Positions 3,143 through 31,189 of a stretch of 64,000 bases of DNA are shown piece by piece. Under the pieces are notes generated by a model, which was not told the DNA's origin, ran no database searches, and was given only the letters and a program-made list of their open reading frames with translations. Positions within the stretch are counted from its first letter, which is position 1. Each line of letters begins with the position of its first letter. This DNA is from Diphasiastrum complanatum (lineage: Eukaryota; Streptophyta; Lycopodiopsida; Lycopodiales; Lycopodiaceae): the NCBI GenBank assembly GCA_029204225.1, contig CM055097.1, positions 28,755,192-28,819,191 on the forward strand. Direction: 5' to 3'. Made by a program: the position numbers and the translations under genes.

Positions 3143-3222
3143 TTTGATATCGCGAAAGATATTAGTATTAAGGCTTTTTGCTCTGATATCGATATAGTAT
3201 TAGGCCTTGAAGAAGAATCAAT

Positions 3223-3234
3223 GCTTTGATACCA
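3223..3234 (-). other. Primer binding site of Copia A
   Basis: On the minus strand this reads TGGTATCAAAGC, the usual plant Copia primer binding site matching the 3' end of initiator methionine tRNA. It directly follows the LTR end (..TTCGACA), which fixes the inner LTR boundary at 3,235. Confidence 0.9.
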
Positions 3235-4293: not shown

Positions 4294-5853
4294 CTGTTGT
4301 CAAACTCCATATATTTCTACAGCCTATGTAAAACACTTGTAAATCTGTAGACTGTATAAAAACATGGGAAAATCCGCAGAATTGGACAAATAGTTGGATG
4401 AAGATTAAAAACCGATTAGTCGATTAGTAGGAAGGAGAATAATCCATCATCTCAATTTGAGAAATATCGAGACTAGTTTTTTGGAGTGCTGAAAAGGGGT
4501 GGAACAATTTGATTTTGCAATTCGGTCCATTCTGCATCCCATCTTTAGCTACATTAGCTAGCAGTTTCAACCGTGAACTTTTGTGTAGGGTAGACTGTCT
4601 ACCATAAGAGTTGTCAGCCATTTCGAGTGAATTCGGATTCTCAAAAGTCTTGCTATCATACTCATAGGTTTTGCTATCACTAGTTTTTTAGTTGAGAGAG
4701 GAAACTGATTTGGATGAAGTGTAAAACCCAATCCTTCTAAGTTGCATAGTATATGGATTGTCAGTAAATCCTTTATTTAGGAGATTCTTTCATTTGGATC
4801 ACTTCAGCAAAAGTCGCTAATAACATGTCTGCAATGAGAGCTAGGAGGGAAGTTGTCTTCTTTAGAGGAGCTTAATAACGAGCTTGTGCTTCTAGATTTT
4901 CCTAGAGTAGGAATGCCAAAACCAGAGGGAGATTTGATCACCGCCAATGAAGAGGATCTAGGGGATCTTTTCTTATTAACCACCAATTGGTACTGATCAA
5001 TAGTAGATGGAGAGCAGGAGCACTCCGCACACAAGTAGCTTGAAAGACTAAGGCAAGTCTTGCAAAAGGCAAGAAAAGAGACAAAATAAACAGGTTATTC
5101 GAAATAACCAGCTCCATCAAATATGTGAAGACAAGAGGGGATAGCATCAGCCAACTTTCAAAGAATGCAAGCCTTAACGTGAGGTGAGAATTTGGAGTTA
5201 AAGTCAGATCCACAATGTCTATAACCTCTCCAAGGTTGGAAAGGAGACCGAAGAGGAGACATTTAAACTTGACAAGAAAAAAAGGAAGAGAGATATGAAT
5301 CAGAAGATGAGATAGACTCAACGTTCAAAACACTGAGAGTCTTTCTGAACTTGAAGATCGAAACCCCAGAGTGTTAGATATGTATGGTGAAGCTAGTAAC
5401 ATCAGTTTATTGTTGGCTATTTTCTTTCCTCCTTAGCCACCTCATACCTAGAAAATAAGGTTCACGAATTTCGTGCTGAATCAGCGTTAGCTGTCTACAA
5501 ACTGGCACCAGCCAAATCATCCCACCAGGCATCTACTTCACATAGTCGTAGGCGAGTATGCAGCGAGATAGTTTCACCCCAATCACCTCCCACATCTCGT
5601 CGACGGACTTAGCCACCATCATCAACTGTGCTGCTAGCCACTCTAAACTTCCCATCCCCCCATCCTCTACAACCACCTTCGCCATTGATTCCTCGCAAGT
5701 GCCTTCTGTGACTATTGGCTCCATCGTCCAAGTCATAGAAGCATGATCCACCTCTCCATCACATTCTACTGTGATGTCTCCATCAACATAGAGGCTGAAG
5801 AACAGTTTGTTATGTCTTAGAGCCCTGAGCCTTTTGATCCCAACTCTTTTGGA
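4294..5853. other. Y1 left part, no recognisable gene
   Basis: Short open frames exist on both strands (for example a 127-codon minus-strand frame at 4,938-5,321), but none shows a recognisable domain. They recur in the sister copies only because the DNA is repeated. A plus-strand reading of 4,980-5,380 rich in Lys, Arg and Glu, with stops at former Gln or Arg codons, may be old retroelement coding sequence. I cannot assign it. Confidence 0.5.
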
Positions 5854-6426
5854 ATGGAATTCAATTTGTTCCAACACGCCTCTCAAACCTTGGATTCTAC
5901 ACACAGTCAGATCAAGTACCGGATCCAGCACCAAAAATTCCAAGCACTAGACACCATCGCAATCCAATCTGTGGCCAAATCACTAAAGACATTTGATGCG
6001 CAAGTCCCAGACGAGTTTGAAGGTGATGACACATTTGAAGAGGAAAATCCACAAGCAAAACTTCAAGACAAGTCACAGTCACCTGTGGGATCAGTTCCTG
6101 TTGTTGCAACAACCACAGTACCGCCAGTCTATCTTGATTATGGTGACATCTTAAAAATTCATACACACCTAGGATGGATGATCCAAAATATGATAGAGGG
6201 GAAATCTACCATGGAAAAGTAGATTTTGAATCTCGGCTCGAAGAACACTTTGATCAGTCAAAAGCTGATCCAGATCAACCGGGAGCTGTAGATCATGAAG
6301 CAGCACGAAGCCAAGTCTGAGAGTCTCAAAAAGACCAAGAAGCAAGAGAATTACGTTGCCAAGCTCCATAATGCTCTGATCAACGCTCAAGATCAAGTAG
6401 ACAAAGCTGTCCAAAATGCCAAGTAG
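5854..6426 (+). pseudogene. Unknown coiled-coil protein frame, Y1 copy
   Basis: A frame of 191 codons runs from an ATG to TAG at 6,424-6,426 with two in-frame stops. TAG at 6,220-6,222 is CAG in copy 3 (41,979-41,981), and the TAG after I-N-R-E-L is shared by all copies. The product would have an acidic middle (E-F-E-G-D-D-T-F-E-E-E-N), a Val/Thr/Pro-rich stretch, and a Lys/Gln-rich heptad-like C-terminus suggesting a coiled coil. No family is recognised. A tail or gag-like frame of a retroelement is possible. A preceding 62-codon frame at 5,558-5,746 may belong to the same old gene. Confidence 0.45.
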
Positions 6427-6464
6427 CAGGTTCTCCTATTGTAGGGTCAATTACATGTGTTTTC

Positions 6465-6465
<1 letters not shown>

Positions 6466-6541
<76 letters not shown>
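6466..6541. repeat. (GA)n microsatellite, Y1
   Basis: About 38 uninterrupted AG units. The sister tracts are 59 bp (31,131-31,189), 81 bp (42,225-42,305) and about 175 bp as (TC)n in the inverted copy (60,099-60,273). Confidence 0.98.
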
Positions 6542-6543
<2 letters not shown>

Positions 6544-7736
6544 TATCTCAAAAGTTAGAATAGAGAAATATTGAAAGTAGTGAAATTAGAATTTCGAAGT
6601 CAAAACATAGAAATATTGAGATGGCTATCAAATGTTGCATGTATGTACCATCCACACTCTACATGTAGAGGACGAAGATTATGCTAAATATCAAGAAAAG
6701 GAAAGTAGGGGAGTGTAAGGATTTTTGCCTGCTATGAACCTCAATTGAGCCTTGAGGTCATGAGGCCTATCTTCAAAAAGTAGAGGTTAGAGGAGAAATT
6801 CATATTCTTTCCAAATCCTTAAAACATCGAAGATCAAATGTAAACGGGAGGACAAATGTTGATTTGTGGATAGACTTGAAAACTTTCCATTATGAGGATT
6901 TATGGTTTTGAAAGATTGGATCACTAGGCATGTGGTAGTGGTAGTAGTGCTATGTTGATTTGATGAAGATGAGCCAACCAAGAATTTTAGTGATGGTTTG
7001 CTATTCTATATTCAATGTTGAAGGATGAGATGTGTGAATGAAAGAGAGAGGGCTAAGAAATGGTATCTACTTACAAGAATGGTTTGGATAATGGATCGAA
7101 ATTTGTTAACACCTCAAAAATTTTGTCTAGATTGTCCATCCTTGTGGTGCATGAGTTGTTTATATGAGGATATTATTTTGTCTCTTTGAGTTTCAAATGG
7201 TCCATTATACTTGTTATCCTGAATTCATTTTGCTTGTGACATTTGGGAATAATCTTGCCATTTCTATGCAAGAAAAGTGAAATCCAACATGTACATAGAC
7301 TACTTCCACCTCAGCATGATTATGTTTGCACTGCCATAGCAAAAGTTGGAGCTTAGAAAGTATATTGAGGACAAGATTTTGATATTGCAAGACCAACTTG
7401 AAAGCCTGGTACTCCATTACTATTAACCTTATTTCATGTACTTGTACTTACTAGTTTTCCTTCAAAGCCAATCATATTTAAGATCTATTTTATAATCATT
7501 TGGTATTTTTTGAGAGAACATAGCAATCATGCTCGTTGTTTCAAAGATGTAATTTATAACCATGCACGTGAATATTGTAATGCCTTTTGTAAGAAATAGA
7601 TGGTGAGCAGATTGCTTTGGTGATGAGCATAGTTCTCGTTAGGCATGCACCGAGCTATTTGGTAGTGTGTAGTAGCAAATCCGTTAAAGAATGAAAGTCC
7701 ACAACCATCCTGGCATGGTGATGCCCTCGGATAATA
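6542..7736. other. Y1 non-coding AT-rich stretch
   Basis: No domain-bearing frame, RNA gene or repeat was recognised. Small minus-strand frames at 6,787-6,981 and 7,214-7,417 recur in the sister copies as passengers of the duplication. The stretch 7,159-7,179 is lost at the inversion junction in Y4. Confidence 0.5.
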
Positions 7737-8012
7737 GGCTAAACACATGGTTTGGTGGTACAACATGGATTGTCAAATACAATACCTTTCTTGGGTAGAA
7801 ATACACTACCTTTTTATTGGAGGAGCTACTCCCACTACTTACCCCCCAATACTCCAAGAGGGTAGGCCCATCATTACTAGGGATATCTTCATTGCATTAA
7901 CTCGTGGGTATCATCAAGCTCCATCCCAAATCCCCAAAAGGTGAAATGTACTACCAAAAAGTACAATGAAAAATGAGTTTTTCTTTTGTACCACCAAACC
8001 ATGCTTTTAGCC
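7737..8012. mobile_element. 276-bp MITE with 27-bp terminal inverted repeats (Y1)
   Basis: The left end GGCTAAACACATGGTTTGG (to 7,763) and the right end (7,986-8,012) are reverse complements over 27 bp with two mismatches. The interior has no coding capacity. Length and structure fit a miniature inverted-repeat transposable element. A clean target-site duplication is not obvious, so the superfamily is left open. Sister copies lie at 32,386, 43,502 and 61,974. Confidence 0.8.
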
Positions 8013-9351
8013 AATATCACTATTTCAATTTTCTGATGTAACTAGAGTATCAGTTAAAAGTGTATTGTAGCCATCTGAATAAAGAAAGCTTGTGTTTGTT
8101 TGAAAAGGGAAGTTTTTTGTATTTGATAACATAGCATATGCCGCATACCTAGATATCTTTAATAGTTGCTATTGCTTTCCCAATTTCATCCATGTACTCA
8201 AAACTCAAACGACATGTCAAATTTCTTGCTAGGGCAACCCTCAAATCTAGTTTACTTGGCTGGAGAAGATTACTACCTTGACTTATTGGCTTTTTCTTGC
8301 ACCCTTATGCGCATGAGGGAAAGGAAACCAAAGTGCGGTCAATATGCTTACAATCAGGAGATGCCCTACTGTTGTTTTAAATAACAAAGGAAACCTTGGA
8401 TCAAACCACTGGCTGCGGCCACAATTGTCTTCGAGCCTATTGTATTCATGGTAAATATTTGACACCCTCCAATTGTATGTACATTTATGTTGTGGCTCTA
8501 TGTATTCATGTATGTACATTTATGTTGTGGCTCTTTGTGTACCTTTAACTGCTTGATGCAACTCGCTTATTTATATCAAGGAAAATTCTCCGTGTCGTAT
8601 GATGCTTGCTGTGTTTTGAACTACCTTTATATCAAATTTATCTGGTCAAAGTTTTTTTTTTCAAGTATAAGCCCTCCGCAAGTTTGTTCCTAGGAACTAA
8701 ATTTGCGACATAGACTGGTACTTGTGTTTGTTGCTAGTGCATAATAAGTTATTGTATGTAAGGTAAACAATCTAAAAATTCTTCATTCTTTTGTAATAAC
8801 TAACTACTAAGACAAGTGACTCAACATATATCCTTGTATAAAGAGGGCAAAAAAAGTTTTCATATCATGAATTTCTTAAAATAAAGTCAACTTAATAGCA
8901 TTATGATTTCAATGCATGCTAATATATTATTAACAAAATCTTTCACTATGAGGTTTATAATAGAAAAAGATAAGATGTAATAGCTACAATTTTGTGAATT
9001 TGCTATATGCTAAAGGCTTGGAGCTTGACTTCCACCATAAAAGTGACTCTTCTCAGGTGAAAGAGTTTGATGCCCAACATGACCCTATTCAGGATGCAAC
9101 TCTTCCCTTCTTGAACACTTCTATTCTTGCATAGGTGAACAACCACATTTGTTTGTTCTTGCCTTTCCTCTTGACATGCTTGAAGATGAGATGAATGTGT
9201 CAACTTTCCATGCAATTTGTCATATATTGTTGGCTGCTTTTATTAATTTGTAGTTTATGCAAAAGTGGTGCTACTTTGTTGCTTATTATTTTAACTTAAG
9301 AATCAGAGCTTTTGAACTTTTTCTAGGTTGGATGAGGAATTGATGGATTGC
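8013..9351. other. Y1 non-coding stretch
   Basis: No recognisable gene. A 26-bp near-direct repeat (TGTACATTTATGTTGTGGCTCT) occurs at about 8,479 and 8,513. The small frames here are uninterrupted by chance and carry no known motif. Confidence 0.5.
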
Positions 9352-9670
9352 GATCTGAACACTGAAACGTGAATATCGTGAATATTGAAATGCGAATATT
9401 GAAACATATCTCATAAATACTAAAACATGAATATCATGAATACTGAAACGTGAATACTCTGAATGCTGATTGTGAAACTCTGAATAATGATTGTGAAACT
9501 CTGAATACTAATCATGATAATCTAAATACTAATCGTGGAACTCTGAATACTGATCATGAAACTTTGAATATTGATCGTTAAACTTTAAATATTGATCGTG
9601 AAATTCTGAATATTGATCGTTATACTCTGAATATAGATTGCGATACTCGGAATACTTTGATCGTGATATA
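9352..9670. repeat. AT-rich minisatellite of about 19-bp units, Y1
   Basis: Degenerate tandem units of the type CTGAATACTGATCGTGAAA repeat about 16 times. Weaker echoes (GTGAATATTAAT..GAAAT) continue to about 10,150. Copies are at 34,001-34,319, 45,116-45,434 and 63,587-63,840; the last is shorter by about 70 bp. Confidence 0.85.
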
Positions 9671-10826
9671 TTTTTAATGATGCAATTGTGAGTAAAAAAT
9701 AGCAATCTTTCTAAATGCTAAAATTGTGAATTTTTTTAATATCGAATTTGAATTTCAATAATTATATCAAACTATGAAATTAGTGAATACTCAATCTTGA
9801 TATTCGTGGTTACTCTCATGAATATCTATGATGAAAATTTTGTGAGTTTAATCGTGAAATTAACGATAAGATTTATCACTACTTTCTTCAATACATAGAC
9901 AATAAATTATGATATTCATTTTTTACAATTGTGAATGTGCATCATAAAATTGTAAATATTACATCGTGGAATTTACTACTACTTTTGTGAATATTAATTT
10001 TGAAATTTTTATATTAAGTACAAAACTACAAATACTTAATTTTTTCCTTTTGTCGTTATTTCTAAAAAATGATTGCAATATTGTAAACCTACTATTTTAG
10101 AGCTTATGCATAATCTTGTGACTATTGATACTGAGTTTGTGACATGATAAATACTCAAATATAAAAATAATTAAGATTATTTGTTAAGTTAGAAAATGAC
10201 CAAACAATTTTCATCCTACAAAATGATCATTTCTCTTATCAAAGATTTACAAGTCTCAAAACACCACAATAATGGCAAGGCCTTGCCATAATGGTGAAAT
10301 TATTGAATTGAAAAGACAAAATTCTTTTATTTGAGATTCAAACAAATCCATTTATTAGCTTTTTCACTAAAAAGATAATAATCGGTAACTTAAGTCATAA
10401 TGAAATTCATTTGTTTCTTTTTAACATTTTTGCAAAAGCTTGTTGTGGGTATTTTGCGTGTATAGATAAAATAGCCAGAAGTAGTGGAAATAAGTTGCGA
10501 GGGCTTGTAAATAATTTATTTTTGGATAAACTAGACGTCGGGCCATGTAATTAAGATAATATTAGAAGACCAAAGTTTAAGTTCTCTAAGTTTTGTAATT
10601 AGCAAAAGTCAAAGTGGTGGTAGGTGGGGTGTGCTTCCTTGTGCACCATAGATTAGTTTGTGTTTCTTTTGAAGGGTTAGGATTTCAATCCTACCTTCTT
10701 GCAAGTAGCCAATAGGAAGCAAGGGCCAGGGCCACTCTAAAGATAAAAAGGCAATTCTTGTAGACCAGTTTACATTGTAATTGAGAGGAGGAAATTCTAC
10801 CACTTTGGAGAGCCAAACATCCTCAC
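9671..10826. other. Decayed minisatellite extension and AT-rich spacer
   Basis: From 9,671 to about 10,150 the sequence looks like mutated minisatellite units. An 18-bp perfect palindrome, ATGGCAAGGCCTTGCCAT, lies at 10,272-10,289. No gene was recognised. Confidence 0.55.
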
Positions 10827-11072
10827 GTGCTAATCATGTTCAGACAGATCATTTTGAAGGAGGGATTGTCCATTGATCCTTCAAAGATTGAAGTCATAAA
10901 AAACATGAGATTTTCAAAATTTGTGAAAGGAATGTAGACGTTTTTGGGCATGACGGGCTTTCACCGCCACTATATCTATGCGTATGCAGACAAAACTCAT
11001 ATCTTGTATGAGGTTCTTAGGAAGGGGGCCGTTTACAAAGTTGTGAAAAATTGCCTACATTGGCAAATCTAG
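10827..11072 (+). pseudogene. Ty3/Gypsy reverse transcriptase fragment, Y1
   Basis: The translation has the end of a Gypsy RT: K-E-G-L-S-I-D-P-S-K-I, then F-L-G-M-T-G-F-H-R-H-Y and a Y-A-D-K-T segment before the RNase H junction. TAG at 10,935-10,937 breaks it; copy 3 has CAG there (46,707-46,709) and stays open for 81 codons. The polymerase core upstream is missing. A Copia LTR follows 4 bp after the frame and separates it from the RNase H start at 11,734. Confidence 0.8.
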
Positions 11073-11075
11073 CCA

Positions 11076-11732
11076 TGTAGAATATTGTACATTTTGTCAA
11101 TATTGTTTGTTGGTTACTTGAATGGCCAAAGTGCCACTTGTACATACACACCTAAAGTAGGTTACCACGAGTCAAGAGGAGTGGTCGTGTCTATTTGGTA
11201 GTGATTCCTACTTTGTAGGATCTAGACCATGATTTATGATGAGATTTGTACCTACCATGCACCTACCAAGCATGACTCTTGGATCTAGGCTAGGGTTTTC
11301 ACATTAGGGCAAGAAAGTGGAGTCTACTTCCTTATTACATGCTGGATTTTCACCTAACTTTGCAAAGGAAGTGTGTTTTACTATGTATTTCCATTCTCCA
11401 TAGTGAGAAGATAGAAACTTTTTGGAGCCTCAAGGAGAAACTCGAGTTTCCTCTCATTGTATGGTGATTACTCTATTTTTCCAATAAAACCCAGCTTTGG
11501 CACTTTGTAAACACTGTCTACAGGCCGTACTACAGCCTTATTTCCACACGTGTGGAGTTGGATTAGACTATTTGATCAATGCTTTGATTGTCTATACTTG
11601 TTTCCTATCAAGCTGTTAAACTAGATCTTGTTTTATGATGACTAGTTTCTGATAGATTGTTTAACAAGCATACAATCACCTTGTGGATCATTCAAAGATC
11701 CATTTATGGTCCTTAGTACTGTACTTTTCACA
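11076..11732 (+). repeat. Solo LTR of Copia B in Gypsy sequence, Y1
   Basis: This 657-bp block starts TGTAGAATATTG and ends CTTTTCACA. It matches 46,849-47,504, where a primer binding site and Copia coding sequence follow directly. Here Gypsy RNase H sequence follows instead, so the internal region is absent. A polyadenylation-like AATAAA lies near 11,482. No clean 5-bp target duplication is visible, so the outer edges could be off by a few bases. Confidence 0.8.
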
Positions 11733-11733
11733 A

Positions 11734-11880
11734 AACTGACCATTAAGCGGTATAAGGTGTTCTGTGATCTAATACATGCCTTAATTAATGCACCCATTTT
11801 GTGACCGTCGGATTGGAGCAAACCATTTTATATACATTACGATGCATCTCAAGTAGCTGTTGGGTGCATGGTTTAGTACT
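11734..11880 (+). pseudogene. Ty3/Gypsy RT-RNase H junction fragment, Y1
   Basis: The frame reads A-L-I-N-A-P-I-L, stop, D-W-S-K-P-F-Y-I-H-Y-D-A-S-Q-V-A-V-G, the conserved start of a Gypsy RNase H with its first catalytic aspartate. The TGA inside fits loss of a CGA arginine codon. It continues the RT fragment at 10,827-11,072 across the LTR. Confidence 0.8.
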
Positions 11881-12184
11881 CCGTATTATCCTAGGGGTAC
11901 ATAATTCATGATCCCTTTATATATCATATATAAATATATATATGATACAATGAGATTATAGTTAAAATAAAACTTAAACAACAAGGGAGAAAAACAACAA
12001 GGCAGTAGCCTGCTATCATCTTTCATCGAAGATAGCCTCACACTTGACCTGGCTACACTCTCCCATCTATCCAACAACTTATTATGTGGAAGACACTGCT
12101 CAACCATGATAGTTCTAGTATATTATTCGTATGATCCTAATGCTCAAGTGATTGATCCAAATGTCCTGATCTACGATCCAAACT
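11881..12184. other. AT-rich spacer between Gypsy fragments
   Basis: Includes a TATAT-rich stretch at about 11,915-11,950. No gene was recognised. The preceding RNase H is cut off here, and the next fragment belongs to an earlier part of a Gypsy polyprotein, so this is a rearrangement junction. Confidence 0.5.
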
Positions 12185-13110
12185 AAGATGTGTTTGTAAC
12201 ACAACAATTTTTAGCAATACGTGGGTGTTTTGTCTGTGCAGGTAAACATCCTAGCATTCGTTGCCCATAACAACTTCATTTTCCACCAACTTGTGAAAAT
12301 TGTGGCATTGAACACCATGTTAAGGATTGCCCTTCACGATCTAAACCTGCCACTCTTGACTGCTTCATGCAAGTAGAAACTCTGCCAGCATGGGTCATGA
12401 TTCGAACACAACAACACCAAGCCACTACCATTGCACCCATCAGAACCCAGAAGCACTTCATACCCCTGAGTGAATGTTCTATGTCCATTGTATACCCTCA
12501 ACCATCCGAAGAAATTAGCCTGAATCACAAATACCATCAGCAGATTCAAAATCTAGACCAACACTCTTCCACCTGCCATAGAGTGCCCCACACATCTCTC
12601 GAGAATAAAACTCTAGGGAGATCTGTTACAAGCCAACGTCACACTTTCCTTCCACGTTTTATGGAAGCATGCAGGTCAATGAAAACAACAATTCCAATCC
12701 ACTGAAACCACCACCCTTGACGAGCTTCCTGAAATGCCATTACACCTAACCAATCCACTCAGTGAAAGGGGCAATATCAAGATTCCAGCAACTGATCGCC
12801 AATCCTGAGAAGTATTAGTTGTGTTAGATGGTGGCTCAGGTGTCAATATCATCTCCACGTCTCTCATGCTGGAATGGAACTTGAAAGACAAACTCACCAA
12901 ATTCACTTGTCAGCTTAGGATGGCCGATCAAAGTGTCGTCCGAATTACGGATTTTCTTCCACAAATTATGATTAAATTGGGAGGCCTAAAATTCACCATA
13001 GACCTGGTTGTATTTGATATTCCTGGTAACGCCTATTCTTATGAGTTACTGCTTGGTTGACCATGGCTCACCAATGCAAAGGTCGTTCAAGAATGGAGCA
13101 AAGGGTAGTC
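12185..13110 (+). pseudogene. Ty3/Gypsy gag zinc knuckles and protease, Y1
   Basis: Two CCHC-like knuckles of the form C-x2-C-x3-H-x4-C lie in one frame at 12,226-12,264 and 12,292-12,330, followed by an open stretch to 12,705. After a frame change an aspartic protease follows: D-G-G-S-G with the aspartate at 12,827-12,829, then a Y-E-L-L-L-G, stop, P-W-L segment near 13,050, the usual C-terminal protease block of plant Gypsy elements. The stops (TAA near 12,268, TGA near 12,806, TGA near 13,058) fit former CAA or CGA codons. The fragment lies downstream of RNase H, the wrong order for one intact element. Confidence 0.75.
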
Positions 13111-13236
13111 ACTTTTGGTTATAGAGAGAGCTCCGTTACCATTGCTTCATCTGGAAAACTCAAACCAGCCCGATGTGAAAGATTCAACTAGTTTAGTCAT
13201 ATTTGCTACATTTCTTTATATGGCAAATTGAGGCCA

Positions 13237-14431
13237 ACTTTATATTAGACTTAGAGTTTGACTTTTCAAAGTTAATTTGTCTAAATTTCATTTGAATAAA
13301 TACTTTTTGAAAGTGCGGGAAAGTTAGAAGTCGAGTTAGAGTAGATTCAAATTTGAATGTTGGGTACATTGAATCTAGTCCCAACAATAGTAGGGTTTAC
13401 ATTTTGGATGGAAAGCCAAGTGGCCAAATAGGGTTTGGACCTGTTATAAAAGGATGTAACTTGTAGAAAAATAGATCTTCTCTCTTCTCTATCTCATTTC
13501 ATGCTTATACATGGTTCTCTTGGTTTCTACTATCCATTGGTGCACTATACTTGTGATTGCTTGCAATTCTATGTGTGTAATGATCTACATTTGTTATTTC
13601 TGGATCCACGCATGTGAAATACAATAGCTTGTTGGTTTTGTACGGACAACAACATTTGTTTTCTTTCTAAAATTAAGATCAATTTATGGATTTGGATCAT
13701 CATTGATCTAAATTCTTTCACATTCGATACCATGATAATGATTCATCCACTAAAAATTATGTGTTTTGAGCCATACCAGTCCACCCAAGATAAAGGTCAT
13801 TATGTGAAATCTACTGATATCATAAACTGGAGTCACAGTTTGGCAATGATTGATCGTGTGAATGTTGACTATTGTGCTCAAAATTAGGCTGATTGTGCCT
13901 ATATTCCCATGGCCGATAACAAACAACCTCCTGATCTAGACACACCTATCATTAATATCAATTATATCAATATTCAACCACACAAGGATGAGTTGGTAAA
14001 TGTTGCAGACTGCCTATTGATGAATCGAAAGATATTTTCGTAGATAATAAAAATGTCTTGAGAATATAGAATTGCCCAGAAGATTTGGACATTTCTAAGA
14101 TACTCAACTACATGGAGGCATGTCCAATTAAAGCATTTCCCTAACATTCGTCCAAGGTAGAACCAGTCGCCAAGGACATGGTTGAAAAACGTGATACCAG
14201 AGTCTATTGTGTCAATGACCCAATTTCCGATGGGACCTATGTGAGGAGAAAACAATTTATCAAATCGACGATGAGATCCTCCATGACATGCCAGCGATTC
14301 CTCATCTGAACACCTCACGTCCTCAGAAGCCACGACCACGTGGCAATACCATGAAGGAGAAAATGAAAAAATGACTTTTAACCTCCCGAAGACCTGACTA
14401 CCGCTCAGGAAGTTCATGAGATCGCTTTAGC
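13237..14431. other. U block start: no assignable gene
   Basis: This is where Y1 and Y2 stop matching. A TATA-like TTATAAAAGG at about 13,443 could be an old LTR promoter. A plus-strand frame from ATG at 13,911 runs about 43 codons, and a minus-strand frame of 147 codons spans 13,974-14,417. Neither shows a known domain; both are probably decayed retroelement sequence. Confidence 0.4.
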
Positions 14432-14986
14432 TCATACACCTATCCCATAATCTCCCAAATCTCCATCAATGCAATTAAAGGGCAAAGCGAGCATTCTCAA
14501 CAATTGATAGGATGTAGGTAGAGACTTCATGAAGTACATTAGCTGTTGTGGTGCTGAGACCTGATGCTCTTGTCCAGATATAGCAAGTTGAGCAAAGATC
14601 GTTTTGATCTTCTCAACATGCTGATCCAACTAGTTGCCATCCCATCGTAGACTTTGCAACTGGTTGTGTAGGTGCATCACTGATGTAGTAGTCCTCACTT
14701 TGTACTTCTACTTTAGTTTTTCCCACACTTCATGGTTGCTCTCATAGTCTTCGACCTGCATGAAGATTTCTTCGTTTATGGATGAAACGATGATTGCCAT
14801 TGCGTGCTCATCCTTTCTGATCCATTCAGCTCTCTTGGGGTCTCCCTCTGGTGGCTATTGTTCTGTGAGATCGGTCACTGACCAGATTCCTTCACCCTTC
14901 AAGAGTGTTTTGATTTTGAACTTCCAAAATCGATAATTTGCGCCATCAAGATTGATTGCAATCCTTGTCTGAATCGTTGTAGTCAT
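14432..14986 (-). pseudogene. Copia C gag (broken)
   Basis: Starting at ATG 14,986 the minus strand encodes a typical Copia gag N-terminus: I-N-L-D-G-A-N-Y-R-F-W, then L-L-K-G-E-G-I-W and W-E-K-L-K. At least three in-frame TAG stops interrupt it, each fitting a former CAG. The sequence ends after S-L-P-T-S-Y, so zinc knuckle and pol are absent. It belongs to a third Copia family, distinct from A and B. Confidence 0.8.
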
Positions 14987-15007
14987 GTTGTGTTGCCTAG
15001 ACAATTC

Positions 15008-15019
15008 GCTCTGATACCA
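15008..15019 (-). other. Primer binding site of Copia C
   Basis: Reads TGGTATCAGAGC on the minus strand, the canonical initiator-methionine tRNA complement of plant Copia elements, 22 bp upstream of the gag ATG. Confidence 0.9.
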
Positions 15020-15350
15020 TGTAGATTTTCAATTGTTTGGAGACAGGTTTTCTAGCTGCTCTTTCTTGTGCTCCTTTTGCTAGCTTGTGGAATTTTATAG
15101 GATCCTAAACAAATGACTACAGATCACAGACTTCAACGCATCCAATTAGCAAAAATGACACGACAATCAGAGATGGAAGAACTGAGAGCATTCATATTCT
15201 GTACATTCCTTTTGTTTCGAGTGAGTCAATCAGTGTTGGTGGCCTGTTGCTCCCCTTACAAAAGTCGATATGTTCTGCTCATTAGAAGACTTTCATGCAT
15301 AGCTGATAATGCTAATAGTATGCTAACACTGCTCTTGACTTCTTCATGAC
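15020..15350 (-). repeat. Putative 5' LTR of Copia C
   Basis: It must begin at 15,020, next to the primer binding site. The outer edge is not visible and is set only provisionally before the T18 tract. No second copy of this LTR is in the window. Confidence 0.35.
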
Positions 15351-15368
15351 TTTTTTTTTTTTTTTTTT
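15351..15368. repeat. Poly-T tract (18 bp)
   Basis: Uninterrupted run of T. It could mark an old retroposed end, but no element body is recognised beside it. Confidence 0.9.
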
Positions 15369-15542
15369 CGTTCTATGCTTATCCCATCTGAAAAAATTAC
15401 AAGATTACTTAGCAACAATTTACAAGATATGTTTAATGCTAGTTAGCTACCCTTTGATAACGTTGCCTTTGGCAGCTAAGCGTGATAGTACAATACTCCA
15501 CGCTTGTCGAGCTGCTAACTGCTAGCTCAACTTGTCCAACTT

Positions 15543-18186
15543 TTGGTTTCGGCACGAGGTTCATCTTCAGCACTTTGGTACTTCGGCTCTAGTGACTTTG
15601 ACTTTGGACTCTTCGGACATTTGGTTGTAGGGGCAAACGGCGAGCACTTCGGTGTTGAGTACTTCAGCTTTTGCCTACGCCTTCAGCTTTTTTGGCTTCG
15701 GGGAATGCCAGAGAATGGTTGCAAGAGTTCACCGTTTCCAACATATCCTAGCACCAAGAAGCGAACCAATCCACAAATATCTGAAGACCATGCAACACCT
15801 GCACCCCCCACGAAGAAGCAAAAGGGTAAGGAAGTTGTTCAAAGCATCAACGACAATGTGTCCCTTGATATCTTATCAAGCGATATAGGAGCAGAATATG
15901 CTGATTCAGGAGGGAGCCTTAAATCCTCACAAGTCCCAAGAAAAGTTTTGGTACACCAAGAGGCCTTACTCCAACAGGACCGACAAAGACGACAAGCAGT
16001 AGCAGCATCAGGTAGCTCTTTGGGCAATTGCACTTTCGGATCAAGTTCATTGGGAGTGGTCTGGCCAACTACAATAACTTCAGCTGTTTAGGTATCTCCT
16101 CCTAACACTGCTACCATTTCACCACTTACTGCCACATACATCCCTTCTTTCACACCTAACATGGATTTCGATACCACTATTCCGAAAAAGCCCTCCTCTA
16201 TACTCTACTTGACTCTGTGGTCAACGTAGATGATTTTGCATTACAATTACTAACACAAAACACATCCACCACTGTCACAACTAATCCAATCCACTCTTCT
16301 CCTCCAAAACCTCAATCACCTCCACCTTCATCTCCTCCAAAACCTCAATCATCTCCAACCTCATTTTCTCAGAATCCATCTTCTCCACCAATTCCAGATC
16401 TTCTTCCATATAACCCTATGCCTCACCCCAACTATGGCCGCTCCTTCCTTGACATTGGACTTTGGGAGTAATTACCACTAGCAGCCCAAAAATCAGTATG
16501 GTTGGTCAATTAGCTACAATACCACATTTTTAGCACATTTTTAGGACAACAAGCACTAAGGCAGGTGGAAGATGGAGCAATTTCACAACTTTAGCAGGAT
16601 AAGGCAAAGTTGGGGCTGATCTCGATCAACAACAACTGTAGATCCAAAATCTAAATGCACAACTCTTGTAGTAGCAAAAAATGATTAGCCACCTCCAGAA
16701 CTAGCTCCAGTTAGAAGATCAAACCATTTTCGACCTGCAAAATACTATGACAAGCCTTATGGAACGTGATGACGCCTTGGCAGTTGCACGTTCCGCTATG
16801 AAGGATCCGCTGGCATAGGTCAATTTCACATATTTTGCACCTCCAACTATTCTCGAGGGAACTCAGATTCCAATGATGGCATATCAACAATTGGCACAAA
16901 AGAGCAAAGGCCACAACAGAGCAACACATCCAAGTATAACAATCCTATACTGCTTCTGTCGATGCCCTCAATCAACACATTGCCACCTTGGAAGAGAAAT
17001 TAAAGACAACTATCCAATCAACATCCTCTGTCCATGCAAAACATGCCCAGTTTCACCAATCTGGGCCAAAGTACGATGGGTCAGATGGTGGTGATGGGGC
17101 GGGATTTCAGGAGCCTGCATCAACTAATCAGGGGTCATCCTTTAATGGCCTAGCTCAAGTGTCGACAGCTCCACCAACCAACCCGCAAAGCACTGGTGGT
17201 ACTTCCTCCCAACACCCCCTCTTTTTTTTCGCTTCTAATCCCATTGACACAACTAACTTTCCCTTCATCCAACCCCAATTTTCTCCTGAATCCCAATGCA
17301 TTTCTAAATCCAGTCCTTCACCACCTCTCTCTCCTCAACCCGATCCACAACATCAACATACCTTGGCAGCTAAAGCCCCTTCAATAAGACATAGAATCAC
17401 TCCAAATGAGCCTAGCAAGGATCTACAGATCCTTTAAGAGTTTGCAAAGAAGTTTCAGCCCAAGGAGCAAGGTGGATACATTCTTCCGAACCTCGACAAA
17501 TGCCAAACTCATAAAGAAGCAGTCAAACTCCTTGATCCACAACCAACATGGCACCATAAACTGTTTCTACAAAGCAAAACCTCCATGGCATGGTATCTCG
17601 ATGCACCAGTCTATATGTGCATCAATTCCTATTATTATCCAGTAATCATCGAGAGCCGTTTGCTGACACGAATGTTAAAAACAAGATTCATTGGCCCAAG
17701 TTGACAAGTGTGAATACTGACAACTCGACAGACAACATGATCACAAATTGTCGCGTATTCTACCAACAACAGCATGGCAGCCCCGATCATGATGTGCGAT
17801 ATTTTGCAGACAATTATGGCCTGGTGGCATCTTTGGCAGAACTACAAGGTTATTAGAATTGGGGACTCCCATCAATCGCCATCGATATCAATCATCCCTT
17901 AAAGACTGAAGCCGACCACATCAACATAGGACGAATTTATTACAGGGTAGCTCTAACTTCGGCGCTCCATGTTGATATGGTCAAGCTATGGAAAACACAT
18001 GGCTTTCTCCACAGTATGCTATATTACTATACCCCAAGGCCCTTCTTTAAAAAATTATGTTGGCAAATGCTAGAAGGGATCAACAAGAAAATCCACCAAA
18101 CATGGCAACAACAATCCTGCCTCCATGAAGCCCAACAGATTTGGGACAAAAAAACTTCGATTGGTGTGAGACCACCAATCCAATAA
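15543..18186 (+). pseudogene. Long gag-like frame of a non-autonomous LTR element
   Basis: A series of plus-strand frames with stops and shifts reads as one decayed protein. First come about 180 codons with two Lys/Arg clusters (K-K-R and K-K-Q-K-G-K near 15,750-15,830) resembling a bipartite nuclear signal. A Pro/Ser-rich block follows at 16,260-16,400, then Gln-rich heptads suggesting a coiled coil at 16,600-16,870, and a short second one near 16,960-17,040. A Pro/Gln block spans 17,130-17,400. A C-terminal domain at 17,430-18,186 (TAG at 17,854-17,856 inside) is rich in His, Trp and Tyr. No zinc knuckle, protease, RT or integrase motif was found. A polypurine tract and LTR follow at once, so it appears to fill the internal region of a retroelement. 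The family is unknown. Confidence 0.55.
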
Positions 18187-18198
18187 GGAGGGGGATAA
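18185..18198 (+). other. Polypurine tract of the non-autonomous element
   Basis: AAGGAGGGGGATAA sits directly after the stop codon and directly before TGTTAGC, the position and composition of a plus-strand priming site for an LTR retroelement. Confidence 0.7.
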
Positions 18199-18312
18199 TG
18201 TTAGCAAAAAAATATAAAAAAATAAATAAAACACCGTGACACGTGTATTGTAAGTCCACGTGTGAGTACTTGTTAATAGATTTCTACCATGGCATATGTG
18301 TTATAAGACCAT

Positions 18313-18475
18313 GGGTAGAAGCTTAAATAAATTCTAAACTTCTAAGTTAGAAGCTTAAGTTAGAAACTTAAGCTTAAAAACTTAAAAGATTCTAAGTTAT
18401 CTTAAGTTCTAAGTTTAGAGACTTAAACTTTCTAAGTTAGAAGTTGTGAAGCCTTAGAATGGCAAGTTAGAAGTC
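18313..18475. repeat. TTCTAAGTTAGAAG word cluster
   Basis: The words TAAGTTAGAAG, TTAGAAACTTAAG and TTCTAAGTT recur at least ten times and pair with each other in both orientations. They lie upstream of the LTR TATA box, so they may be U3 elements. Confidence 0.7.
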
Positions 18476-18517
18476 TAATCCCATAAGTTAGTGGATACTT
18501 ATGGAAGGCCCTTCTTG

Positions 18518-18526
18518 CTATAAAAG
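18518..18526 (+). promoter_or_regulatory. TATA box in LTR
   Basis: CTATAAAAG, with T/G-rich sequence downstream. This would be the promoter of the retroelement, not of a host gene. Confidence 0.5.
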
Positions 18527-18780
18527 AGAGGCATTTTTCTTGTAAATAAGACTTTGAGATTATGACAAATTGCCACCTTGTGATTATCTTGTTATTTCAT
18601 TGTGTTCTCATTGGAAGGTGAATAGCTTGAGGGAAGGTGCTCGGACCTCCTCTTGCCTCTTCATAGGTTTTTCATTGTGGCATGCTTTTATTGCTTATTG
18701 CTTAATTAGCCGCAATCATTATTATCATTCCCTTTGGGTGTGTTGGCTTGGATGTTGATGCCAACTATAAAATGAATTCC

Positions 18781-20998: not shown

Positions 20999-23684
20999 TC
21001 AGTGGTCCTTGTGATGTTCTGCACGATTAGGAGACGTGATGTCTTCCTTTGCAGAAGCTCTGTGATCATCTTCGTGATGCGAATGATGAAGATGAGCGAG
21101 CTTGCTTAATTTTTTAAATCCAGTTATCCAAGTTGAAAAAGTCTTATGCTTGGCAAAGTGGTGCATTTCTTCATGAAAGCGACTATATTGACTTCGAACC
21201 TCAGAAACTTCTTGCTTTAGATTGTCCATTTCCAATCGCATTAGTTTCATCTCTTCATTTACCTTGGCCAAGCCCTCCGAATTAGGGCTAGGATGAAGAG
21301 AGGTTTGAAACAGGCCGACTTCCTTCAAATTGTCATCTGATTTAAGAAACTCTTCAGGCTTCCTTCGTGCCAATGCATTCCTCACCTTGATATAATCGCA
21401 GAATAGAACTTGAACCACTGTTCGTAGTGGAAGGCGTTCATTTTGAAAAGCATGCACGCATGCCTGAAGTGAGAGCTTTTGACAGTCCATAATTCTGCAT
21501 ACCTTTTTTCTTTCATGTTCTGTTAACCTTGGATGGGTCTGAAATCACAAAGCCACTAGAAGTCGTTAGTCGATACTCTAATCGGAATATTATGCTAGAG
21601 GTTAGTACAAAACTCTGTAGAGAAGTAGCCCAATCCACATGTCTGTTTACAATTAAAGTCTAGGCTTGCATCAGAATATGTTCTACATGAAGAAATGCTG
21701 CCTAATAAGCTGAGGAATATACCTTCAGGAAGATGTCTATAGCGCGGTAGAGACCATCGTGAGAAAGGCGGGAACCATCTGGTATTAGTTCTGCAAAACT
21801 TTCAAATTTTGTTAAGGATAGATTTCTGTCCCTTGCTATTTCTGATAGGTAGCTATCTAAGAGTTTGGCCACTTTTAACTTGGCTGCCTGCCTTGGTTTG
21901 AAGGTCCTTGGCGATTCATCCAAGCCTAGCGATGGTGAAGAGTTCGAATGATAACTTTGTTCTGTGATTAAAAAATACTCTACGAGCCGCTGAACAAGCT
22001 CCACGTCAAACAAAGTTTCATACTCACTACAGAATGAAGGTATGAGCAGGTCATCGAGTGTTGCATGATCAAGTTGCGATCCAACTCTTTTTTCTAGGTC
22101 CGCTTTACAACCTGCATCAGCATCCAGCATATTCGCAATTTTTATCAAGCGAATTAGGAACTTGCTAGGAATTGCACTGTCCTCGCGAGGAAGTATTCTT
22201 ACAATGTGCTCAAACAGCGCTAAGTCTTGACGATGTAAAGTAGAGAAACCTTTTACAACTGAATCACTTATTTCTGAGCCAGATACAGATCTTTCCCCTT
22301 CAACTTCTTCAGGGTCATGCATAACAATTTCATACTCTCTTGCCACCGCAGGCAACCATTTTAGAGAATAATGTACGATGACGGATCCAATTGAATCAGG
22401 TCTCATTCCCTTCGCCGCGAGGGCAGCTATTACTTTGGTAAAGTGACCTATCTCGAGGGACACCACATCGTCAAACCACCAGTCTTGCGCGATGTCGCTT
22501 GCAACACTGAAACCTATTGTATCATTGGCAAAGGAAGGATGATTCTTGGTCTCTAAGGTTATTTTGGTACCGGGAGATCTTACACCTCGGGGATCTGTAC
22601 AAGCTTTCCAAGCGATTGATTCACAACATCTCTGAACAATCTTCAGATCTTCAGCCCAAGGAGAAAGGCGTTCACAGGTTTTTAGTACTGATATGGATCT
22701 TTTCCAAGACTGAAGAACAACGTTGTTTATGAACGTTTCTGCTTTTGAGATCAGGTTTCCTTCTTCAAGATCATCAGACATTTCAAGGTAATCTGCCATG
22801 CATCTCACTGCAGCGACGTTTGAAGCACTCAGATCTACAGGCATTCCATAACAAAATCGAGCAGCCAACTCAAAAGCTTCTGCGCCGCCAGACATATGAG
22901 CAAGTACAATTTGAGTCTTCTCCGCATCACGTGACTCGAACACAAGCCGATTGATACGGCCACTTCTGGAGAGCAATGGAAACTGCACAATCTCAAAAGT
23001 TTGTCAGACATTACAAGTCCAGTAGATATAATTTCATCCTTGACCAGAAAGTAGCAGCTACTTTTGATAACTGATCGACGTACGCAGAATCCCCAACTAT
23101 TTGAGCAGTGTTAAGTGAAATATTCACTACTTTTTCTTTTCTTGCACATATCACCATAAAGCGTACTCAACAACGAACCTTGTGGAGATGAAAATTTAAG
23201 CCGCCAACCTCCACAGTCAGGTCACTTTGTAGCTCGGTGGCAACAAACCTACAAGAAGGGTATGCTAAATAATTATCAATACAATGCTAAACCTCACCAA
23301 ACTGTTATATCATGCCAAAAGCTCATATAATGATGAAGCGAAATGGTTCAGTTTACTTGTATGTAACACAGATGAAGTACAAAGGACGAAAAATTATCCA
23401 GAAAATCAGGCTATTTCATGGAAGACGTGCGAATAAAATTAAAAAGCTTTTGCATCTCGCATACATTCTTGAATCCTGATCAGAACGCTCACCATAAACT
23501 TGAATTAATCTTCAGGCTTAATAAGAGTTACTGGAATTTGTACAGTCCGTATAAGTACTTACCAAGCCTCTCCTTTCCTTTGGAAGCCGTCGATTTTCGT
23601 ACCCGTCTTGACAGGACTCATAATGAACGTAGCATTGTCATTGACGTGGACATCTACGTATATGGGTTCCTTCAAGCCATCCAT
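20999..23684 (-). CDS. BTB-NPH3 domain protein (NRL family), four exons, intact
   Basis: Exons on the minus strand are 23,563-23,684, 23,179-23,248, 21,723-22,982 and 20,999-21,538. Joined they give 1,992 nt, 663 residues, ending TGA at 20,999-21,001. Intron donors are GTAAGT, GTTCGT and GTATAT; acceptors are TTGTAG, GTGCAG and TTTCAG. The start is the first in-frame ATG after a stop at 23,718-23,720. The BTB fold spans about residues 45-165 (S-D-L-T-V-E-V-G, H-L-H-K-F-P-L-L-S-R-S-G, F-C-Y-G). The NPH3 domain starts at about 231 (D-W-W-F-D-D-V) and ends near 530 (K-L-S-L-Q-A-C, then L-P-L-R-T-V-V-Q-V-L-F). A coiled coil at about 572-610 and a His-rich tail follow. Family members act as CUL3 ubiquitin-ligase adaptors or scaffolds in phototropin or auxin-linked signalling at the plasma membrane. 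The length is normal and nothing is broken. An alternative start at the Met 22 codon is possible. Which subfamily it belongs to is not decided. Confidence 0.93.
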
Positions 23685-25855: not shown

Positions 25856-25989
25856 TTCATGTAAAGATAAGCCATTGGAACCTTGCAACCTATTACACAA
25901 TAGAAACCACCGAGCACACAAGTGGTGGTGTGCCCTCCCAAGGTGGAAGGCCAGCCCCTCCATGTCCACCCTAGAGGGAGACATCGGCC

Positions 25990-25992
<3 letters not shown>

Positions 25993-26042
<50 letters not shown>
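25993..26042. repeat. (CA)n microsatellite, Z1
   Basis: About 25 AC units; the Z2 tract (51,798-51,836) is shorter, about 19 units. Confidence 0.97.
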
Positions 26043-26045
<3 letters not shown>

Positions 26046-26079
26046 TTGAAAATTCTTAGGACTCTTAACCCCGCACCCT

Positions 26080-26107
26080 CCCCCCCCCCCCCCCCCCCTC
26101 CCCCCCC
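26080..26107. repeat. Poly-C tract, Z1
   Basis: A near-pure C run with two T interruptions. A second short C run is at about 26,255-26,266. The Z2 copy is shorter (about 51,868-51,887). Such runs are prone to sequencing length error. Confidence 0.9.
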
Positions 26108-26734
26108 AAGCTCGGAGAAATTTTTTGATATGTCATGGCAAGAGCACTTCATAATACTTCAGCAGACCGAGTGAGATTGATGTTTTTAGCATTATTAGCA
26201 AGGCTGGCCTGATTATGTTATAAAAACAAGCCTCGTAATAAGCCATAATGAGCACCCCCCCCCCCCAAGTGTATAAAAATAGAACATGAAATTTCTATAC
26301 GATGATTGTACGACACATCTTATACAGTACAAAAATACAGTAGATTTTAAAAATTATAGAACCCACATATTTAACATATGACAATGCAAATAGATCAGAA
26401 AAAGACTGCCAACAAAAACGACGCTGCCAACGAGAAAGATGCTCCAACGAGAGAGACGAACAAACCACGTTTACAAAACTCGTTGAACAATTAACACCTC
26501 GTTGAACTTTGCAAAGACGTACATATGGTAGTTAAATTGTAAAGCTAAACATTAAAAACACATCGAACTTCACAAAAACATAAAACGTGAATTAGACCTT
26601 ATAAAAAATCTGAATTCGAAACAACACTAAAAACACATAAATACGGTAGTGAAACCATATACATATTATGGCAATAGCATAGTTTAATAGCATAATTAAA
26701 CTGTATAAATACTTTGATAGCCCTGGTATTAACG

Positions 26735-27412
26735 TCAGTTAACGGGCAAGACATGCTCATTATCTATTCTCGTTATCGCATAATGAAAGAAAGAAAATGA
26801 AGCGTGCTCAGTTCTTATCCGTGAACACCATTTACGCCCGAGAGGAATTAGGGCACCCTTATTAATGATTCCTCCAGGCTCCAGGTCCTCCAGAAGAATG
26901 CGAATTGCCCTGACGCTTCCTTTCTGACGCCGTAGTGGACCTGGCCACTGGTCCCACGCCCTGGCTGCGGGGTCTTGGCTCTCCACCTTACAATCTAACT
27001 GTTGGGTCTCGGCCCCCCTGTCATTACAAATGGCCCTGGCCCCAGTTACCGGATGAATGGGGAATCCCGATGTAGGAGTCAGATGGTGGCAGTCAGCACG
27101 ACGTAAAGCCCATGTAAGTTGGCCTTTAAGCACGTGGAGTATTAGTGACCCATAAAATAAACTCGCTAATGCCCACAACATAAACCATAAAAAGGTGAGC
27201 GAGTTTCTAGCCCCCTTTGGAAAGCAAGATGCATAAACAAGTAAGTCGTTATAGGCACATGGCTTTGCGCCTATTTTATGGTCATGGTCCATGGATATAG
27301 GCAAGCTGCCAACTCCTTGTTTACACAAATATGCTTTGTGGGTCTTCCCTAGTGATGAACCCCATTGGTCTTGTGACACTTCACACAATGGAGAACAAAA
27401 AGATACCTTCAT
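26735..27412 (-). CDS. Uncharacterised 225-codon ORF, Z1
   Basis: An open frame from ATG to stop, kept open in the second copy at 52,512-53,189 with only three amino-acid changes that I can see. The middle (about residues 70-95) is hydrophobic and could span a membrane; the rest is Arg/Gly/Pro-rich. Local GC content is clearly above the surroundings at about 26,860-27,070. No domain is recognised. The frame may be accidental or organelle-derived; there is no direct evidence that it is expressed. Confidence 0.2.
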   Translation of the reverse strand: MKVSFCSPLCEVSQDQWGSSLGKTHKAYLCKQGVGSLPISMDHDHKIGAKPCAYNDLLVYASCFPKGARNSLTFLWFMLWALASLFYGSLILHVLKGQLTWALRRADCHHLTPTSGFPIHPVTGARAICNDRGAETQQLDCKVESQDPAARAWDQWPGPLRRQKGSVRAIRILLEDLEPGGIINKGALIPLGRKWCSRIRTEHASFSFFHYAITRIDNEHVLPVN

Positions 27413-28463
27413 TCATTTTTTTCTCTCAAAGATGCTTTAATTTGAAAGAACATAAGCATGCACTCATGCAATCAACTATCAAGTGTAATATTGCATGGAC
27501 CAATGCATGACAACCATGTAAGCAAGACACTTTCCCTTGTTCTTAGATGAGCTTATTCCCCTATTCCACTTTTACTGAGGGTAGAGGCAAGGCCCCTCCT
27601 CATCCAACCATTGAGAAAGCTTTTTTTTGTGTTTCTCTCAAAGCAGATTGACCATACATTAAAGAGTTTTTACAAAAATACATGCAACAAAATAAAACTC
27701 AAAGAAGTAGCACTTTAGTAGTAGTAAGTTTTCATCAAGTAAGGGATACCTTGTGACTATTATGCCCCTTTTTTAACATATTAAAAAGTAGAATATATAT
27801 GTAGTTTTTTCCAGACATAGGTGCTGCTCTTTCCACCCTTCGTGTCCATATGGCTGCCATGTGACACTTCTAGACTGGTCAATCAGAGTCAAACTGCTTA
27901 TTATGCTTCGTAAGGTACATGTGAAAAAAGTCAAGGTATCCATTACGCAATGGAATCCGTCGCACAGAGGACATTTTGCCCAGTTCGGCTTTCCAAAATT
28001 TATTAGGCTCAACCCCTCTGGGCCTCGCCTAAAAAATTCTAGAAATCCTTACCGGGCAAAATGTCCTAGGCCCGACACCTTCCATAATACGTTATTTTGT
28101 TTCAAATACTTGAGTATTTGTAATTATTTGTGATTCAAAATTACTTAATTCATAAGTGGTTAATAAATCTCAATTTGCATTGTAGATCAATGAATGATGG
28201 GTCTTGTTAGAAAAGTATGTCAAAATTCAAACTTGAAAGTAAGAAATCTAATAATAAGAACCTTGTAAAGAATACTTGTAAGAGGTTGCAGGTACACTAG
28301 CAAGCATTGCATCCCATACACTATCATTGAATTAAATTGATTGAAGGCATAATAAGGAATCACCCTTCAAAACGTGGCCCCAATGAATTTATGTATTTGC
28401 ATCTCATCGTTAAGGGAAAAAAAAAAGACGTCTTATAACTTGCATCTCGAAAAAAAAGGAACT
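27413..28463. other. Z1 non-coding right part with inverted repeat
   Basis: A perfect 14-bp inverted repeat, AGGACATTTTGCCC (27,968-27,981) and its complement (28,054-28,067), encloses about 72 bp rich in short GGCC/CTAA words. It is conserved in Z2 at 53,745-53,758 and 53,831-53,844. No gene was recognised. A mini hairpin transposon remnant is possible. Confidence 0.5.
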
Positions 28464-29189
28464 TAGAAATGATTTTGAGTCACTAGTGATATAACAAGAA
28501 CGATGTGGTGCTATACCACAAAGGCCTTGCCATGTCATAAGTCGTACTTTTATTTTACGAGAATCCTACAAGTTTAGCAAATATGGAAAGGCATTTATGA
28601 CATAATATGAGAATATTAAGCTGAAAATAAAACTAAAAAATGTGTGAAAAAATAACAAGGTAGGCTGCAGACTCGTCCATATACTTCATAGGTGGTCTGC
28701 TAGCTCTTGATGATCTTCTGAAAAATAGAGGAAGTTGATCATCATCTTTTGATTCACTGTCAATGTAATCGACATTGTATACCTAAGAAAATCCCTCTAG
28801 CAACAAGTCAGGCTTTTCTTCTGTCGATGCTTCCGTTTGCTTTGTACTTGACTTTGAAAATCCATTTGCAATCAACTACGTTTCTGCAAACAGGTAATTC
28901 GACAACCGTCCACAATCGTCCATGCCTGGTTCTTGATAAGAGGACGAATCCTCTTTATCCATAGCTTTTTTCCAGAGATTTGAATCTGGCTGACCTGAGT
29001 GCCTCCTTACAGTTGTCAGCTCGTGAAACAAGTAGGCTACATACACATCGATATACATGATAAGGTGGTCTGAGCTCTTGCGATGAACTTCTGAAAAGAG
29101 GGTTTAGAATCATTTTTATCATCTACTTTTTTGCATCAACATTTTGGCTGAATTGGGCAACAACAAGGGAATCATCAATCGTTTTTTCG
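28464..29189 (-). mobile_element. Copia A relic, copy 2 (truncated, X2)
   Basis: Matches positions 1 to about 700 of the window (internal duplication, RT start, linker). It is then joined abruptly to sequence equivalent to 4,525 of Y1. The rest of pol, gag and most of the LTR is missing. From about 28,790 rightward the match becomes dense with single-base indels. Confidence 0.8.
28790..29189. other. Indel-dense stretch, likely uncorrected assembly join
   Basis: Compared with 324-700 there are many one- or two-base insertions and losses (for example CCCTCTAG for CCTCTAG, AGAGGACGAA for AGAGACGAA, TGACCTGAG for TGACTGAG), and the density rises toward the junction. Substitution-type decay dominates everywhere else, so this resembles raw long-read error at a contig join. 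Confidence 0.6.
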
Positions 29190-30518: not shown

Positions 30519-31091
30519 ATGGAATTCAATTTGTTCCAACACGCCTCTCAAACCTTGGATTCTACACACAGTCAGATCAAGTACCGGATCCAGCACCAAA
30601 AATTCCAAGCACTAGACACCATCGCAATCCAATCTGTGGCCAAATCACTAAAGACATTTGATGCGCAAGTCCCAGACGAGTTTGAAGGTGATGACACATT
30701 TGAAGAGGAAAATCCACAAGCAAAACTTCAAGACAAGTCACAGTCACCTGTGGGATCAGTTCCTGTTGTTGCAACAACCACAGTACCGCCAGTCTATCTT
30801 GATTATGGTGACATCTTAAAAATTCATACACACCTAGGATGGATGATCCAAAATATGATAGAGGGGAAATCTACCATGGAAAAGTAGATTTTGAATCTCG
30901 GCTCGAAGAACACTTTGATCAGTCAAAAGCTGATCCAGATCAACCGGGAGCTGTAGATCATGAAGCAGCACGAAGCCAAGTCTGAGAGTCTCAAAAAGAC
31001 CAAGAAGCAAGAGAATTACGTTGCCAAGCTCCATAATGCTCTGATCAACGCTCAAGATCAAGTAGACAAAGCTATCCAAAATGCCAAGTAG
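30519..31091 (+). pseudogene. Unknown coiled-coil protein frame, Y2 copy
   Basis: Same 191-codon frame as at 5,854. It carries the same derived TAG (30,885-30,887) as Y1 where Y3 has CAG, showing that Y1 and Y2 are closest relatives. Confidence 0.45.
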
Positions 31092-31129
31092 CAGGTTCTC
31101 CTATTGTAGGGTCAATTACATGTGTTTTC

Positions 31130-31130
<1 letters not shown>

Positions 31131-31189
<59 letters not shown>
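31131..31189. repeat. (GA)n microsatellite, Y2
   Basis: About 29 units, the shortest of the four tracts and the main length difference between Y1 and Y2. Confidence 0.98.

Follow-up and report, generated by a model that had tools for sequence, protein, structure and literature searches.

A nested and deleted Ty3/gypsy copy in Diphasiastrum complanatum and the conserved extra 3′ open reading frame of its family

The 64,000-nucleotide stretch of Diphasiastrum complanatum analysed here (assembly GCA_029204225.1, contig CM055097.1, positions 28,755,192 to 28,819,191 of the forward strand; hereafter the window) contains a long decayed open reading frame (ORF) followed by a long terminal repeat (LTR). 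From the letters of the piece 15,543-18,780, an earlier note had offered two origins for this pair: an undescribed non-autonomous family similar to LARDs (large retrotransposon derivatives), or an ORF from the tail of a larger element that had lost its pol. The second origin is borne out, and the window further retains gag and protease remains and has a Copia remnant at the break. The sequences very probably belong to one decayed plus-strand Ty3/gypsy element at about 12,063-18,741 that has been interrupted by a nested Copia and a deletion, and whose extra ORF (eORF) encodes a protein kept by selection. The window element is thus an ordinary nested, deleted gypsy copy rather than a representative of a separate pol-less family.

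The 3′ end of the element agrees with the earlier note, which had placed a polypurine tract (PPT) between the end of the frame and an LTR with a TATA box. Read directly, the PPT AAGGAGGGGGATAA lies at 18,185-18,198 on the plus strand and overlaps the TAA stop at 18,184-18,186, the LTR adjoins it directly with TGTTAGC at 18,199, and the TATA box TATAAAAG lies inside the LTR at 18,519-18,526. The PPT has the same position and the same or nearly the same sequence in the relatives L020, L023 and L029. The decayed frame of about 880 codons is coding and carries stops and frameshifts, but its proposed start at 15,543 is wrong: gypsy homology begins only at 15,744, which puts the former position 201 bp (67 codons) within what reads as a Copia LTR. 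The eORF, recognized by its 80.5% nucleotide identity to L023 and by genome searches with translated pieces, spans 15,744-18,186 on the plus strand and lacks its N-terminus. The LTR, earlier drawn to 18,780, ends at 18,741; the match ends in the LTR search and the longer LTR of relatives identify 18,199-18,741 (plus strand) as the first 543 bp of a 3′ LTR whose own 3′ end is missing.

A search of the same 1.74-Gb genome with 18,199-18,780 as query gave 46 stretches from 40 places scored of 3,543 candidates; here and below, such first-look candidate counts are not counts of scored copies. Three matches are full-length and 100% identical, namely the window itself, C6:28,744,925 and C3:17,200,448. 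The two outside the window (L002 and L003) are 99.4% and 99.8% identical to it along the full 3.58 kb fetched, flanks included. They therefore go back to segmental duplication of a single broken copy and are not independent insertions. Among the remaining 43 listed matches, 35 end at query positions 539-545 and eight end earlier, and in ten LTR copies fetched with long flanks the LTR sequence continues beyond the point at which it breaks off in the window. By nucleotide comparison, the LTR is preceded by 2.4 kb of the frame in L023/L024, by 112 bp of it in L019/L020 and by none in the other eight, which is what 5′ LTRs or solo LTRs should show. One of these eight, L009/L010, has an LTR 91% identical to that of the window and a gag 1.6 kb from the LTR start; no gag match was found in the other seven.

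The relatives of the window element carry the genes that it lacks. L029, chosen for its long open frame, forms together with the upstream stretch L031 an element of about 11.35 kb by its coordinates, with two LTRs of 822 bp each (95.0% identical), the 5-bp target-site duplication CCCTC on both sides, and a sequence resembling a primer-binding site (PBS), TGGCACCGCTGCC, one base past the 5′ LTR. Its order is gag, protease, reverse transcriptase (RT), RNase H, C-terminal part of integrase, frame, PPT and LTR, with Pfam matches for Retrotrans_gag (E 8.1e-6), RVT_1 (5e-11) and RNase H (1.1e-13) and, under the cut-off, for the protease (0.04). The hallmarks of a Ty3/gypsy element, that is, paired LTRs, target-site duplication, PBS-like site, PPT and the order gag-protease-RT-RNase H-integrase, are therefore found in this relative, and the window itself retains only the PPT and part of one LTR. 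In L023, RT from its second half on (4.5e-8), RNase H (2.5e-21) and the integrase core (5.7e-8) all lie upstream of the frame. In its normal layout, the family has gag, protease, RT, RNase H and integrase after the first LTR, followed by the extra sense ORF, the PPT and the second LTR.

The association of the frame with integrase is also seen in a spacing survey that compared 150 listed places each, out of 15,358 candidates for integrase, 1,536 for the N-part of the frame and 4,235 for its C-part. At the listed integrase places, a same-strand N-part follows downstream within 6 kb in 8/150 and a same-strand C-part in 9/150, fractions that are low because only 150 places of each kind were compared; neither part lies upstream in any case, and one listed C-part is on the strand opposite to integrase. 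The N-part stands 1.68-1.72 kb from integrase in seven of its eight cases. Some of the places counted look like duplicates of each other, as two pairs have equal spacing, and L029 itself is among the nine C-part cases.

Within the window, the element is colinear with L029 on the plus strand in three blocks (12,063-13,172, 13,765-14,377 and 15,744-18,741). The first holds the C-terminal part of gag and the aspartic protease (VLDGGSGVNIIST), with 71.0% nucleotide identity over 1,145 columns to reverse-strand positions 570-1700 of L029; its protease piece shares 78% amino acid identity over 138 residues, stops counted in, and in Pfam reaches RVP_2 / gag-asp_proteas at E 0.025-0.039 only, under the curated cut-offs. 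The second is a remnant of the region between protease and RT (74.0% identity to reverse-strand 1738-2343), and the third matches at 68.9% over 3,101 columns, with the LTR part counted in. Between 14,377 and 15,744, RT, RNase H, integrase and the N-terminal part of the eORF are all absent.

The gap at 14,378-15,743 is occupied by a Copia remnant in antisense orientation, comprising a gag piece, a PBS and an LTR-like stretch. The gag fragment (14,507-14,851, minus strand) is recognized by tblastn with the Copia frame at 48,238-49,929 of the window (26% identity over 116 amino acids, E 2.3e-7), and the piece 14,435-14,629 has no Pfam match at E<=0.01. The PBS TGGTATCAGAGC, read directly at 15,008-15,019 on the minus strand, adjoins the presumed LTR end and is of the tRNA-Met type. 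The inferred antisense LTR of 724 bp (15,020-15,743, minus strand) reads TGTAGA...CCAACA on the plus strand; its inner edge at 15,020 is set by the PBS alone, at its outer end it meets the gypsy frame, and no partner LTR was found for it. A second Copia element lies at 48,238-51,754 (plus strand) in the window, with long open gag-integrase and RT frames and Pfam matches to Retrotran_gag_2 (2.4e-25), rve (3.2e-14) and RVT_2 (2.7e-19).

The edge at 15,743 is sharp. In a search with 15,400-15,760, four of the 44 listed stretches, all from the duplicated locus, continue to query position 361. None of the remaining 40 passes position 349: 16 stop at 344 (15,743 in the window), one each at 345 and 349, and 22 before 344. 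With the protein encoded by 15,711-16,088 as query, the 150 listed matches begin at residue 1 in four cases, again from the duplicated locus, at residues 5-10 in nine and at residue 11 or later in 137, residue 11 corresponding to window position 15,741. Gypsy homology thus begins at 15,744, exactly where the Copia LTR ends at 15,743. Most likely, a Copia inserted in antisense orientation into the eORF at 15,743/15,744, and a later deletion would have taken most of it and, along with it, RT, RNase H and integrase of the gypsy element and the start of the eORF; the edge at 15,743 would then mark the insertion site, with insertion preceding deletion. A further, shorter copy of the junction between Copia LTR and frame lies at G000 C6:28737068-28737618, about 5 kb from the junction copy at C6:28742123, and matches the first 80 codons only of the 15,711 query.

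The proposed LARD-like family, in which a structural protein of its own would be all that lies between the LTRs and the pol of another element would mobilize the copies, draws on the absence of any pol domain from 15,543-18,780. That absence is accurate for this interval and gives the window copy, which has no RT, RNase H or integrase, a likeness to LARDs, but gag and protease remains lie upstream on the same strand at 12,063-14,377. Deletion derivatives do occur: L030, also chosen for its long open frame, has gag-protease fused to the eORF at 5155-8413 with no RT or integrase match, and is a deletion like that of the window at a different place, so pol-less derivatives arise although the family has pol. 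The window element differs from a LARD in that its family has coding pol, with the loss local here and of another kind in L030. Copies in which the LTR flanks gag-pol had been named beforehand as the observation that would refute a new family, and such relatives are found: L029/L031 has both gag and pol, L023/L024, with an LTR 87% and a frame 80% identical to those of the window, has RT, RNase H and integrase, and L009/L010 has gag. As both other copies with a 100% identical LTR are segmental duplicates and the break falls on the edge of another repeat, the Copia LTR, a family of this kind is scarcely credible.

Several observations weigh against a single nested and deleted element. No 5′ LTR of the gypsy element was found within the 64-kb window, the Copia remnant interrupts the gypsy blocks, and 13,173-13,764 (592 bp) has no homology to L029. 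No target-site duplication can be read for the Copia, whose other end is lost at this locus. Nor does any one fetched copy have every domain undamaged: most of the integrase core is gone in L029 and the front of RT in L023, and the PBS-like site of L029/L031 is inexact, none of four exact PBS motifs searched on the element strand of L031 being present. Moreover, 12,063-13,172 sits in a segmental duplication with a second copy at 36,712-37,821, and the gag/protease part and the frame could stem from different copies of the family. Two separate insertions joined by segmental duplication or recombination would accommodate the duplication boundary at 13,247, which falls inside the presumed element, and the two homology-free stretches that break it up. 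However, strand and order are consistent with one element, and homology to L029 picks up again past that boundary at 13,765-14,377, which makes two insertions unlikely.

The long frame is coding sequence rather than a product of chance. All 150 places listed in a search with its last 109 codons match at 63-100% identity (E<=3.2e-39); they were scored out of 4,235 first-look candidates, and the window and two duplicates of its locus are among them. For the ratio of nonsynonymous to synonymous substitution rates (dN/dS), 12 further copies were fetched; L034 and L035 were dropped because no frame reaching the C-terminus was found in them, and the remaining ten with L029 and L030 gave a set of 12. 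As L036 was partly out of frame in the first alignment, the values were recomputed on the last 178 codons. The median over the 66 pairs of these copies, which were selected for open frames, is 0.148 (range 0.067-0.648), and 65 of the 66 pairs lie below 0.5. In the longer earlier alignment, with L036 included, the in-frame value of 0.18 compares with 1.01 and 1.51 in the +1 and +2 frames and with reverse-frame medians of 0.81, 0.36 and 1.39. The window piece gives 0.46 and 0.43 against its two nearest copies, L037 and L039, and 0.13-0.21 against the other ten; the higher values are as expected if constraint was lost after insertion. The eORF is maintained by purifying selection across divergent copies.

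The protein itself has no counterpart in the libraries searched, and is new only in that sense. In Pfam, six frame pieces of the window and the open frames of L029, L030 and L044 have no match above curated cut-offs; FNIP_N, NotI, Cuticle_3, DUF848 and other weak names all fell under these cut-offs and were rejected. A search of the PDB with a profile of alignment A1 (13 rows) gave no matches at E<=1, and a literature search over the titles and abstract openings of one open-licence library found nothing naming this ORF. An open frame of 871 codons in L044 spans basic, proline-rich and coiled-coil-like parts and stops within the conserved C-terminal region; the nuclear-signal and coiled-coil labels were assigned by eye, without a program. 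Hydropathy, computed for L044, L029 and one window piece without a dedicated topology program, finds no membrane helix. The 19-residue mean peaks at 1.07 in the L044 frame and at 0.91 in that of L029 (505 codons), against a usual cut-off of 1.6 for a membrane helix.

An envelope-like gene, as suggested for some plant elements with sense ORFs after pol, would have the position and sense of this frame (review PMC7264820), but with no membrane helix found it is a very unlikely identity. The eORF would instead encode an accessory protein that is not membrane-bound; basic, proline-rich and coiled-coil-like stretches are seen in it by eye, and its conserved C-terminal domain is aromatic. Such a protein may act in the nucleus, on the particle or on the RNA. 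A nuclear accessory role can be put forward only tentatively. The same caution applies to the wider suggestion that the eORF represents an undescribed conserved protein family in gypsy elements of early-diverging land plants, soluble and probably nuclear rather than envelope-like, that might aid multiplication through targeting, a particle function or anti-silencing.

In layout, rather than by position in an RT tree, the family resembles the plant Ogre/Tat/Athila (OTA) elements that have a sense extra ORF after pol and before the 3′ LTR (eORF-3′F / aORF-3S), with which it shares the order gag-protease-RT-RNase H-integrase-extra ORF-PPT-LTR and a long internal region. The PBS-like site of L029/L031 resembles the tRNA-Asp type, a further likeness, and the scanned C-terminal integrase piece of L029 has no Pfam chromodomain. 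The extra ORFs of Ogre, Retand and Athila contain a plant mobile domain, Transposase_28 or Athila ORF-1, according to PMC6317226. The present protein differs in having no credible Pfam match, and none of these three domains was found in the scanned pieces of the window, L029, L030 and L044. For TatI, a club-moss Tat, PMC6317226 describes an additional RNase H located between the protease and RT. No RNase H was detected there at E<=0.1 in three open pieces of the single decayed copy L029; Tat lineages without it are described in PMC10508981.

The window also contains repeated large segments at 1-13,247, 25,856-37,896, 37,936-47,504 and 51,661-64,000, whose pieces (0.7-9.6 kb) are 94.9-99.7% identical in forward orientation, with a stretch at about 59,482-61,416 inverted in the last copy. 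A gene of the NPH3 family, a plant gene family, lies at 20,999-23,003 on the minus strand, split between two frame pieces that match Pfam NPH3 at E 2.2e-72 and 8.7e-10.

Sense 3′ ORFs after pol are a known, poorly understood class, of which the window element is one more case. Such ORFs between pol and the 3′ LTR are reviewed in PMC7264820 and antisense ORFs in Retand are reported in PMC11963269. PMC6317226 counts 3,372 Ty3/gypsy elements with extra ORFs of 250 codons or more, sorts these ORFs into 314 similarity groups, finds that 21.4% of their proteins resemble known domains, and questions their function given their strong divergence. Taken together, the data indicate that no pol-less class of elements is needed to account for the window, and that a nested, deleted copy can mimic a new element if a window is read in isolation. 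The conserved eORF is the part worth keeping: as it is under purifying selection across divergent copies, the question whether extra ORFs have a function becomes testable within one genome.
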